Shown here: in pieces, positions 33,187 to 36,760 of the stretch | How the letters are laid out: each line of letters starts with the position of its first letter | How positions within the stretch are numbered: position 1 is the first letter of the stretch | Source: Thermanaeromonas sp. C210 | Lineage (GTDB): Bacteria; Bacillota; DSM-521; Neomoorellales; Neomoorellaceae | Direction: 5' to 3' | Assembly: GCF_013167955.1 (NCBI RefSeq) | Contig: NZ_BLWF01000002.1 | Coordinates: 62,001-126,000, forward strand | Length of the DNA stretch: 64,000 nt | The notes under the pieces: generated by a model | What the model saw: the letters and a program-made list of their open reading frames with translations, nothing else | What the model was told of the DNA's origin: nothing | The model's database searches: none | Made by a program: the position numbers and the translations under genes

Positions 33187-34590
33187 CTAGAAATATAGGT
33201 CCCGGTATCCCTGTTCCAGTTGTTCGAGTTTCTCCTCCGTGGCCCGGCGCAAAGATTCCTCCTTTATTACCGCCAGGCCGGCCCGTATTACCCTTTCGCC
33301 CCGTTCCCGCAGATGAAGGGGCGCCCTCTCCAGCAGGTATTCTTTAAAGCTCAGTAGGGCGTTGGGGAGGCAGAAGTCTTGTATGCGTCCCTGCCGGGCC
33401 AGCCCCGTAAACCGGGCACCCGTCCGGCCTGCCCGGTAACAAGCAGTGCAAAAACTGGGCAGTCGCCCGCCGTCCAAGATGACCTGCAAAATGTCCTCCA
33501 AGGGGCGGTGGTCGTCTACCTCGAATTGAGCTGCCGGTTCCCCCGCCCGGGCATAGCCACCGGGACTTACACAGGACCCTGCCGACATCTGGGAAACCCC
33601 TATATTAATCAGTTCATCCCGGAGCTCCGGTCGCTCCCGGGTGGAGAGCACTATTCCCACGTAGGGCAGGGCTAGACGATAAACGGCCACCACTTTGCGA
33701 AAATCGACGTCGCTCAAGGGATAGGGTACCCCGGTCAGAACTGCTCCCAGGGCCGGCCGCAGCCGGGGTACGGAAACGGTGTGGGGGCCAGCTCCGAATT
33801 CCCTCTCCAGGGCTGCGGCATGGCTCAGGGTGGCTAGGACCTCGAAACGGTAATCATAAAGCCCGAGCAGAGGGCCGATGCCTACATCACCGAAGCCTGC
33901 CTGCATGGCGCGGTGCATGCACGTCAGGCGCCATCCGTAATCTGCTTTGACACCACTTGGATGCATGGCTATATAAGTGGGTGGGTGGTAGGTTTCCTGA
34001 AAACACTGGTATACCCCCGCCCCCGCTTCCTTTAGCCGGCGGAAATTGGCCACCGTCTGGGGAGCCACATTAATATGGACTATTCTCAAGGGGGAATAGC
34101 GGTAAACCGCCTTAATGGCCTCCACCAGATAGTCTACGTCCCTCCCCTCCCGGCCCTCACCGGATACCAGTAGTACGCGCTTAAAGCCTTTCTCGGCCAG
34201 GGCCTTCGCTTCACGTCCTATCTCCTCCGGGGTCAAGGCCCTGCGTTTAAGCTGGCGATTATCCCGCCGGAAGCCGCAGTAGAGGCAATTATTGCTACAG
34301 CGGTTGCTGATATAGAGGGGGGCAAACAAAACGATGCGCCGCCCGTATACTTTCTCCTTGACCTCTCCTGCCGCAGCATAGACCTGGGTTAGGAGGTGTT
34401 CGTCCCTCAAGTTGAGAAGGGAGGCCGCCTCTTCGAGGGTTAGTCCCCTCAAGTTTCTGGCTTTGCGCAAGATATCCTCCAGGGCCGCCGAAGAGGGCGG
34501 CGGGCTCTCCACCAACTGCTCTAAATCGTGGGGATTTACGATAGAGGTAGGGTCCCAGTTCGCCTCTGGTTTTATGGTAGCCAATTCCAT
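33187..34590 (-). CDS. HydG-like radical SAM tyrosine lyase in the thiH position
   Basis: Radical SAM enzyme that splits tyrosine. The 467-residue product has the SAM cluster motif CSNNCLYC (C98, C102, C105) and, near the C-terminus, C381-X2-C384-X22-C407 in SFCTACYRAGRTGARF and onward. The CX2CX22C group is the hallmark of HydG, which makes CO and cyanide for the [FeFe]-hydrogenase H cluster; ThiH is about 370 residues and ends differently. Yet the gene is the last of a TPP-riboswitch operon, 7 bases after thiG, where ThiH (dehydroglycine for the thiazole) is expected. No hydE, hydF or hydrogenase gene is in the window. It may serve thiamine synthesis, H-cluster assembly, or both. Confidence 0.88.
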   Translation of the reverse strand: MELATIKPEANWDPTSIVNPHDLEQLVESPPPSSAALEDILRKARNLRGLTLEEAASLLNLRDEHLLTQVYAAAGEVKEKVYGRRIVLFAPLYISNRCSNNCLYCGFRRDNRQLKRRALTPEEIGREAKALAEKGFKRVLLVSGEGREGRDVDYLVEAIKAVYRYSPLRIVHINVAPQTVANFRRLKEAGAGVYQCFQETYHPPTYIAMHPSGVKADYGWRLTCMHRAMQAGFGDVGIGPLLGLYDYRFEVLATLSHAAALEREFGAGPHTVSVPRLRPALGAVLTGVPYPLSDVDFRKVVAVYRLALPYVGIVLSTRERPELRDELINIGVSQMSAGSCVSPGGYARAGEPAAQFEVDDHRPLEDILQVILDGGRLPSFCTACYRAGRTGARFTGLARQGRIQDFCLPNALLSFKEYLLERAPLHLRERGERVIRAGLAVIKEESLRRATEEKLEQLEQGYRDLYF

Positions 34591-34597
34591 CTCCCCT

Positions 34598-35380
34598 TCA
34601 GGCTTTGGGCCGGCCTATCATGCCCTCCGTGGGGCTGCTGGGGCTGGCATAAGGCCTCTTGGGTATGCGACCGGCCAGGAACCCTTTGCGGCCGGCCTCC
34701 ACCGCCTGCTTCATGGCTTCGGCCATGAGGACGGGGTCTCGGGCCTGGGCAATGGCCGTATTGATAAGGCAGGCATCGGCGCCGATCTCCATGGCCAGGG
34801 CCGCGTCTGAGGGAGCGCCGATGCCCGCGTCCACTATTACGGGTACGTTTACCCGATCGATGATGAGTTTAATATGTTCGAAGTTAGGCAGCCCCTGGCC
34901 AGAACCGATGGGCGACCCGAGGGGCATGACCGTGGCGGCCCCGGCTTCCACCAGGCGCCGAGCCACCACCGGGTCCTGGGTAGTGTAGGGCAGCACAATG
35001 AACCCTTCCTGCACCAGTATGCGGGTGGCCTCAATGGTGGCTACCGGATCAGGAAGTAGGGTTTCTTCATCCCCTATAACTTCCAGCTTGATCATATCCG
35101 AAAGACCGGCTTCCCGGGCCAGCCTGGCCAGCCGTACCGCTTCATCCACCGTATAGGCCCCGGCGGTATTAGGCAGTAGAGTGATCTTCTTTAAATCCAG
35201 ATAATCCAAAATGGAAGGCTCATTGCTGCCCAGGTTTAGGCGCCTCACCGCTACGGTAACAATTTCAGCTCCTGAGGCCTCTATAGCCTTCTGCATAACT
35301 TCCATACTGGAATACTTACCGGTACCTACCATTAGACGGGAATTGAATTCCCTGCCGGCAATTACTAATTTATCCGTCAT
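34598..35380 (-). CDS. thiG: thiazole synthase ThiG
   Basis: Forms the thiamine thiazole phosphate from DXP, ThiS thiocarboxylate and dehydroglycine. The 260-residue TIM barrel begins [21 protein letters not shown] and contains the [18 protein letters not shown] and [20 protein letters not shown] blocks of the family; the imine-forming lysine is expected in the MVGTGKYSS[13 protein letters not shown] core (the IKLEVIGDE segment). ATG 35380. It lies between thiS and the HydG-like gene in the riboswitch-controlled operon. Confidence 0.96.
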
Positions 35381-35443: not shown

Positions 35444-35644
35444 TTAACCGCCTCCTACAAAACGGACGATCTCGATCTCATCCCCTTCCTGCAACACCAC
35501 CTTCTCGTACTCCTGCTTGGGTACGATGGCCCGATTGCGCTCCAGGGCCATATAACGATAGTCGATACCCAGTTGCCGGAGCAGCCCGGCCACGGTCGTG
35601 CCCGGGTGGACCTCCCTTTTCTCACCATTCACCATAATCTGCAT
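35444..35644 (-). CDS. thiS: sulfur carrier protein ThiS
   Basis: A 66-residue beta-grasp protein ending in GGG, the C-terminal glycine that receives sulfur as a thiocarboxylate. The opening MQIMVNGEKREVH and the RNRAIVPKQEYEKVVLQEGD block are typical ThiS. It lies between thiE and thiG. No ThiF adenylyltransferase is in this operon, so activation must be by an enzyme coded elsewhere, perhaps shared with the MoaD-like protein at 18.0 kb (inference). Confidence 0.94.
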   Translation of the reverse strand: MQIMVNGEKREVHPGTTVAGLLRQLGIDYRYMALERNRAIVPKQEYEKVVLQEGDEIEIVRFVGGG

Positions 35645-35689: not shown

Positions 35690-36304
35690 TCACGTCCCTC
35701 CTCTATCCCCGTCCAAGGCCCGGCGGAACTCCCTGACCGCCGCTGCAGGATCAGTAGCAGCCATAACGGCCGACATGACGGCCACTCCGCTGGCCCCCGC
35801 CGCCAGGCAGGCCTCCACCCTCTCCACGGTAACCCCGCCCAGGGCCAACACTGGTATACCAATCTCCCCTGCAACTTCCCCCAGGGCCTCTAACCCCCGG
35901 GGCGGCAAACCCTTCTTGGAATCGGTGGCAAATACATGGCCGAAGAGCAGGTAGTCGGCGCCACTCCGGGCAGCCGTCAAAGCTTCTCCCCGGTTGTGTA
36001 CGGATACCCCGATGAGGGCGTTGGGCCCCAGTAGCCTCCTGGCCGCTTCCACCGGAAGAGAGCGCTGCCCCAAATGTACGCCGTCCAGCCCTGCCGCCAT
36101 GGCTATATCCACCCGGTCGTTGATTAGAAGCCTGGTGTTCGCCGGCAACGCCCTTCGCAGCTTGCAGGCCAGCCGGTAGAGCTCGCTTGCAGGAAGGTTC
36201 TTTTCCCGTAATTGGAAAAAGTCTACTCCTTCCAGTTTAGCCGCCATAACCTCCAGGGGATACCGGGTAAGCTGTTGGTTGCTTATTACATATAGCCAGG
36301 CCAC
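35690..36304 (-). CDS. thiE: thiamine-phosphate synthase ThiE
   Basis: Joins HMP diphosphate and thiazole phosphate to thiamine phosphate. The 204-residue TIM barrel has FFQLREKNLPASELYRLA, LLINDRVDIAMAAGLDGVHLG and the C-terminal GGVTVERVEACLAAGASGVA diphosphate-binding block. The start is GTG behind GGAAGGGGG. First gene after the TPP riboswitch. Confidence 0.95.
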   Translation of the reverse strand: MAWLYVISNQQLTRYPLEVMAAKLEGVDFFQLREKNLPASELYRLACKLRRALPANTRLLINDRVDIAMAAGLDGVHLGQRSLPVEAARRLLGPNALIGVSVHNRGEALTAARSGADYLLFGHVFATDSKKGLPPRGLEALGEVAGEIGIPVLALGGVTVERVEACLAAGASGVAVMSAVMAATDPAAAVREFRRALDGDRGGT

Positions 36305-36424: not shown

Positions 36425-36462
36425 AAAAAGGGTGCACCTCCGCAAGGAAAGTACACCCTTAA
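36425..36462 (-). terminator. riboswitch expression-platform terminator
   Basis: About 20 bases past the TPP aptamer a 10-bp stem AAGGGTGTAC / GTGCACCCTT (one G-U pair, loop of about 13) is followed by TTTTTATC in the minus direction. It lies well before thiE and is the expected off-state terminator. Confidence 0.85.
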
Positions 36463-36477
36463 ATCACCGGCTTTCTT

Positions 36478-36563
36478 TTCCCTCCGCAGGCATTATCCTG
36501 AACAGGTTCAGCGGGTCAGGTGCTCACTAGCCCTTTCTCAGCCCCTAACAGGAGCTCCCCGTT
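36478..36563 (-). ncRNA. TPP riboswitch (THI element)
   Basis: In the minus direction the leader contains GGGGAGC, then GGGGCTGAGAAAGGG, then ACCTGACCCGCTGAACCTG and CAGGATAATGCCTGCGGAGGG. These are the conserved pyrimidine-sensing and pyrophosphate-sensing arms of the TPP aptamer. It precedes thiE-thiS-thiG and the HydG-like gene, so TPP should shut them off through the following terminator. A TATAAT box (complement of about 36574-36583) lies just upstream without a clear -35. Confidence 0.95.
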
Positions 36564-36760
36564 GTCAAATACACTATTATATTAGAATTTATTTTAACTC
36601 TCCTAGCCCGGCCCGGCAAATCCCGTCGCCAGCTCCAGCGGCCGTTTCTTGCCCCATACAGGCCCTCTTTCCGCCCTTTTCGTGCTTTTCCCTCTCCTTT
36701 TCAATTTCTATACACCCTTCCTGTCCCGTCCTCCGCCCCCGTGGGGGGCGTAAAAAAGTA

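Follow-up and report, generated by a model that had tools for sequence, protein, structure and literature searches.

A HydG-like radical SAM enzyme in the thiH position of a thiamine operon in Thermanaeromonas sp. C210: a predicted ThiH equivalent

HydG is commonly viewed as a hydrogenase enzyme whose second cluster is there to make CO and cyanide. Its C-terminal cluster is required for CO formation and for hydrogenase maturation (PMC3457958, PMC9431212). The closest described systems for the gene analysed here are HydG itself (TIGR03955; structures 4WCX from T. italicus and 4RTB from C. hydrogenoformans), the thiamine enzyme ThiH (TIGR02351; structure 7PD1 from T. carboxydivorans), and the glycine oxidase ThiO, the other dehydroglycine route. 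In a 64,000-nucleotide stretch of the Thermanaeromonas sp. C210 genome (the window), the product of the last gene of a thi operon is not a ThiH by profile, and is not a hydrogenase HydG by its residues and gene context. Judged from sequence, this gene very likely encodes the ThiH equivalent (2-iminoacetate synthase) of a HydG-like family, feeding thiazole synthesis. We coin the name HydGt for this thi-type family, defined by Ile or Met at position 170, H172, V193, three C-terminal cysteines and a location beside thi genes; the window protein has all of these features. A full-text search of the literature open without subscription turned up no account of a HydG-like enzyme encoded in a thi operon.

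The thi operon and its last gene

Pfam and NCBIfam profiles assign the genes of an operon of the order thiE-thiS-thiG-X, in which the HydGt gene is last and a TPP riboswitch lies ahead:

36461..36571, minus strand: TPP riboswitch aptamer (Rfam RF00059, 62.6 bits against a gathering threshold of 54.3)
36428..36460, minus strand: terminator-like hairpin directly behind the aptamer, a pattern match only, with a 14-pair stem and a T-rich tail
35690..36304, minus strand: thiE-type thiamine phosphate synthase (TIGR00693, 169.7 bits, cut-off 145.1)
35444..35644, minus strand: thiS sulfur carrier with a GG end (TIGR01683, 81.8 bits, cut-off 37.45)
34598..35380, minus strand: thiG thiazole synthase (PF05690, 373.7 bits), placed by the ThiG tree with the partners of HydGt rather than those of ThiH
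33187..34590, minus strand: HydGt gene, a predicted tyrosine lyase of the HydG-like radical SAM kind at the place of thiH, with an ATG start and 467 amino acids

The hairpin is likely the expression platform of the riboswitch. The thiE product also scores 179.5 bits against the TenI model, below that model's cut-off of 251. Exactly 7 bases (34591-34597) separate the HydGt gene from the end of thiG at 34598. The initial annotation had described the protein length, the cluster motif, the place in the operon, this gap and the riboswitch, and was right in every detail; the arrangement is not due to chance.

Against the HydG model TIGR03955 the window protein scores 444.5 bits, passing the curated cut-off of 312.15, and against the ThiH model TIGR02351 it scores 316.3 bits, missing the curated cut-off of 380. 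The best PDB match of its AlphaFold model (mean pLDDT 87.8) is HydG 4WCX over the whole chain (TM 0.91); the match to ThiH 7PD1 covers the barrel only (TM 0.68). With HydG the protein shares this whole-length fold at ~50% identity, the radical SAM motif, the tyrosine-binding residues, an Asn at the position of ThiH E158, and the C-terminal CX2CX22C motif (C381, C384, C407). With ThiH it shares the place after thiG, TPP riboswitch control, the tyrosine-binding residues, the expected reaction and an occurrence that is mutually exclusive with that of ThiH itself. Unlike ThiH, to which identity is 34-36% and under the model cut-off, HydGt has Asn for Glu158, a different type of ThiG partner, and an extra C-terminal domain of ~90 residues with three cluster cysteines. 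It would deliver the same intermediate to ThiG as ThiO does, as an anaerobic radical SAM enzyme unlike that unrelated, oxygen-dependent flavoenzyme. The positions discussed below are:

34276..34299, minus strand: radical SAM motif C98-X3-C102-X2-C105, invariant in all HydG and ThiH compared
34069..34083, minus strand: strand beta-3 signature I170 and H172, with N174 as in HydG; I/M170 with H172 in 56 of 56 relatives, R/S170 with N172 in 192 of 192 others
34012..34014, minus strand: strand beta-4 signature V193, Thr in hydrogenase HydG, exceptionless in a recount of 56 and 192 sequences
33820..33822, minus strand: H257, kept in thi-type proteins, hydrogenase-type proteins and ThiH
33370..33450, minus strand: auxiliary-cluster motif C381-X2-C384-X22-C407, with T395 inside, where hydrogenase HydG almost always has Met

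H257, which we take to be the 'dangler' iron His of TiHydG, is present in 56 of 56 HydGt sequences. All five tyrosine-binding residues of TcThiH (T299, R300, R306, S318 and S321; PMC9046217) are kept in the window protein as T317, R318, R324, S336 and S339, a site that is common to HydG and ThiH and so cannot alone tell the two apart. ThiH E158 touches the tyrosine carboxylate (PMC9046217), and the window protein has N174 in its place, as in HydG.

Elsewhere in the genome, at C3:12714-14117, lies another HydG-type gene, with a HydE-like gene and hydrogenase genes of the NuoE/NuoF/HydA type behind it; hydF and three [FeFe]-hydrogenase matches are present too. A ThiH profile search of the genome matches the two HydG-type genes alone, with no classical ThiH. 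With a dedicated HydG beside hydE, hydrogenase maturation has its own enzyme, and among the ThiH-profile matches only the window gene, seen in operon with thiS-thiG, is left for ThiG. The initial annotation had proposed looking for another hydG or thiH and for hydE and hydF, and would have yielded to a separate thiH with the gene tracking [FeFe]-hydrogenase, or to closest relatives that are characterised ThiH with the same motif; neither was found. Just upstream of the hydrogenase-type hydG of this genome lies a gene for a MoaD/ThiS-like beta-grasp protein (L014:12110-12400, plus strand).

A residue signature and its genomic context

The signature was found by comparing 19 thi-clade with 160 other HydG-type sequences, and was recounted on 56 against 192. 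The non-overlapping positions, window against others, are I170 against Arg, H172 against Asn, V193 against Thr, F/Y136 against His/Gln, and T395 against Met. In the numbering of the 4WCX chain, the almost invariant R179, N181, T202, H/Q141 and M408 of HydG are replaced in HydGt, and the window protein itself has I170, H172, V193 and F136 at the first four. The combination of I170, H172, V193 and F/Y136 is common to the 56 relatives and occurs in none of the 192 other HydG-type proteins, 148 of which are clearly encoded beside hyd genes. Positions 170, 172 and 174 lie on beta-3 of the AlphaFold model and 193 on beta-4, with 136, 233 and 311 located where beta-2, beta-5 and beta-7 begin or immediately ahead of that. 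From strand geometry, 170 and 172 should face the barrel interior, and because N174 aligns with ThiH E158 they would be expected to do so further down, toward the C-terminal domain.

Because H172 and V193 served to assign the type, the independent test is gene context. The signature form is found in thi context 48 times and in hyd context never; the other form is found in thi context once and in hyd context 148 times. Among genes fetched after the signature had been defined, 33 are in thi context and 6 in hyd context, and wherever a type could be scored it agreed with the context. Six loci first scored as having no context (L062, L069, L258, L259, L263 and L266) lie beside a ThiS-ThiF fusion gene; in most of these genomes ThiG is encoded at another place. 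Thi neighbours are seen for 54 of the 56 HydGt genes, the remaining two being at contig ends, and hyd neighbours for none of the 56.

In two UBP13-like genomes, which also carry an ordinary HydG, thi-context HydG-like genes (L042, L071) have an intermediate signature, with R kept at 170 and H172 and V193 changed. Three hydrogenase-type HydG relatives (L090:1099-2580, L068 and L224) have Gly or Ala at the equivalent of window H257; L224 is an additional copy alongside the ordinary HydG of its genome, and L090 adjoins a divergent thiG. We considered L090 as a HydGt and rejected it, as it is a single case beside ThiG with H257 changed to Gly and a hydrogenase-type signature. The second Cys of CX2CX22C is Gly or Asp in 20 of the 192 hydrogenase-type HydG (e.g. 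L187, L184 and L193), and several of these variant genes lie beside hydE/hydF, so the motif as written is not strictly needed.

Within the family of the window's genome, every genome with a true ThiG has exactly one supplier, ThiH in three and HydGt in five. In G013, G132 and G212 ThiG is followed by classical ThiH, and in G000, G098, G187 and G237 by the HydG-like gene, each of these genomes also having one hydrogenase-type HydG; in G162 thiG and the HydGt gene are at the ends of two contigs in a fitting order. Neither a true ThiG nor ThiH nor HydGt is found in G285 and G059. The HydGt-group operon is found at a single conserved place, flanked by groEL on one side and by an M23/M50 gene pair on the other, and the thi genes of the ThiH group are at a different locus. 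ThiG identity is 52-56% between the two groups and 85-96% within type. A swap of thiH for hydG beside an unchanged thiG inside Moorella is therefore rejected, as both ThiG and the thi locus differ, and recent capture of the linked hydG of the same genome is rejected by 50% identity and a separate clade. A HydG fragment in G212 is not at the thi locus and is uninformative.

The same arrangement appears among the best 80 contig-database matches in Moorella mulderi, M. stamsii, Nitrospirota, MAGs labelled Deltaproteobacteria, and UBP13. In wider sampling HydGt recurs repeatedly in Nitrospirota and in a second large MAG phylum, that of locus L026, as well as in a few others, adjoining thiS-thiG-thiE or a thiS-thiF fusion. 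Sixty more HydG-type loci fetched from the rest of the window's own phylum, beyond Moorellaceae, include none with a thi-type context. An apparent HydG-ThiG fusion (L270) is an artefact, its poly-Ala run being an assembly gap.

The HydF search, at a match threshold of E 1e-60, covered 17 first-set genomes traced from their loci. HydF and classical ThiH, the latter visible to the same search, are both absent from 13 of the 13 genomes whose sole HydG-type gene is HydGt, and the genomes with HydF (Moorella and two UBP13-like) carry two HydG-type genes. Because the MAG genomes are incomplete, any one missing HydF or ThiH counts for little, and the strength lies in the pattern as a whole. Unlike HydG, then, HydGt is encoded in thi operons and not beside hyd genes, and is found in genomes without HydF; the window's own genome does have HydF and hydrogenases, for which its other HydG provides, and the HydGt operon itself is a thi operon.

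Phylogeny and origin

A HydG tree was built without the signature columns and with ThiH as outgroup. The hydrogenase-type HydG form one clade (bootstrap 98, SH-aLRT 97) that also takes in the UBP13 pair and an uncharacterised group, and HydGt lies outside it. Constraining HydGt to a single sister clade gives a likelihood slightly above that of the free tree (AU p 0.549), and neither a clade of all thi-type sequences with L268, L269 and L271 (AU p 0.349) nor a thi-type group nested beside clostridial HydG (AU p 0.128) is rejected, so that the three tests reach no decision on the root. Moreover, the ThiH branch is very long, and long-branch attraction can yield a rooting with HydGt outside HydG. 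HydGt is best read from these alignments as a sister family of hydrogenase HydG, with the data fixing no order of the two functions. The initial suggestion that the enzyme evolved from HydG is not established by lineages whose direction is not fixed.

A claim on origin that is compatible with the ThiH-equivalent function is that HydGt forms a thiamine-side ancestor grade of hydrogenase HydG, its cluster having first served dehydroglycine handling and later been recruited for CO and cyanide. This is a tentative reading that we consider rather unlikely: the single hydrogenase-type clade under the ThiH outgroup argues for it, as do the thi-type rows, including L271, L268 and L269, that branch outside, but the alternative placements survive the AU tests and attraction to the long outgroup branch can give the same rooting. 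We give marginally less credence to the fuller version, in which HydGt would be the surviving thiamine-side source lineage of HydG and Nitrospirota would keep the steps, from ThiH-like enzymes without the C-terminal domain, through a short Cys-rich tail, to thi enzymes with the full domain and then to CO/cyanide-making HydG.

In the ThiG tree, a 100/100 branch separates ThiH-partnered from HydGt-partnered ThiG. The non-ThiH side mixes HydGt partners with genomes that have ThiG but neither ThiH nor HydGt, which are probably ThiO users; because these group with the HydGt side, the split is no proof of a private fit between HydGt and ThiG.

Two further groups were seen in the course of this sampling. 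A fast-evolving third HydG-type group (L316-L324; e.g. L321:4983-6401, minus strand) scores about 290-325 bits against TIGR03955, some members below the cut-off; all three C-terminal cysteines are kept, there are no thi or hyd neighbours, and the genomes carry classical ThiH as well, several of them together with an ordinary HydG. In the Nitrospirota group, L280:3998-6766 (minus strand), and probably also L239, encodes a 922-residue protein in which a complete HydG domain of hydrogenase-type signature is fused to a HypC-like (PF01455) and a HydE-like radical SAM domain, so that [NiFe] and [FeFe] maturase parts are combined in one chain.

Proposed function and significance

HydGt is built like HydG and very probably works like ThiH. 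In the reaction we propose, SAM would be cleaved at the radical SAM cluster (C98, C102, C105), and the 5'-deoxyadenosyl radical would attack L-tyrosine to give p-cresol and dehydroglycine. The dehydroglycine would travel through a lower barrel now without the Arg/Asn/Thr set of hydrogenase HydG and be received by the co-encoded ThiG, which would combine it with deoxyxylulose phosphate and the sulfur of ThiS-thiocarboxylate into the vitamin B1 thiazole.

All 54 HydGt sequences that extend to a visible C-terminus retain the three cysteines there, so the barrel exit probably still houses an auxiliary Fe-S cluster, and a site conserved for this long without a hydrogenase is presumably in use. We speculate that the cluster may hold or protect dehydroglycine on its way to ThiG rather than convert it to CO and cyanide. 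Two genes of the Nitrospirota group beside thiS-thiG-thiE (L268:3893-5140, minus strand, and L269) encode only a Cys-rich tail of ~45 residues, and a third HydG-like gene of that group (L271:1-1188) lacks the domain, so some thi-side relatives manage without the complete C-terminal domain; all three match neither signature type.

That a HydG-type enzyme supplies thiazole synthesis, as initially proposed, is borne out by the lack of a classical ThiH, by the separate hydrogenase HydG, and by the recurrence of the arrangement in dozens of genomes mostly without [FeFe]-hydrogenase maturation. We give almost no weight to the idea that the window gene is a second hydrogenase-maturase copy, placed in the thi operon by chance or co-regulation and making CO and cyanide for the H-cluster. 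The protein does pass the NCBIfam HydG model and retain CX2CX22C and H257, and its genome does contain [FeFe]-hydrogenases; but a dedicated HydG lies beside hydE, the genome would then have ThiG without ThiH, and we reject an ordinary second HydG on context, residue signature and the HydF absences.

A bifunctional enzyme, passing dehydroglycine to ThiG or converting it at the second site to CO and cyanide (or to free cyanide or CO) once ThiG is saturated or to supply a different metallocofactor, is improbable but has more in its favour. Its cluster cysteines have persisted far beyond what would be expected of an unused site, H257 is retained, and CO formation in HydG depends on this cluster (PMC3457958, PMC9431212), which leaves room for some HydG-like chemistry at the second site. 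Against this stand the replacement of all four residues almost invariant in hydrogenase-type HydG (R170, N172, T193 and H/Q136 in window numbering) and the HydGt-only genomes with no HydF to receive a product. With the HydG-invariant residues of the lower barrel replaced, CO and cyanide synthesis has probably been lost or altered in HydGt, and the capacity that the initial annotation thought might be retained is not borne out.

The standard HydG model names HydGt hydrogenase maturases in organisms without [FeFe]-hydrogenase maturation, and predictions of hydrogen metabolism can be misled. By keeping the cluster ligands while apparently serving vitamin B1, HydGt uncouples the cluster from its hydrogenase role; it is a natural control for the residues that turn a dehydroglycine maker into a CO and cyanide maker, and it makes the origin of HydG testable.
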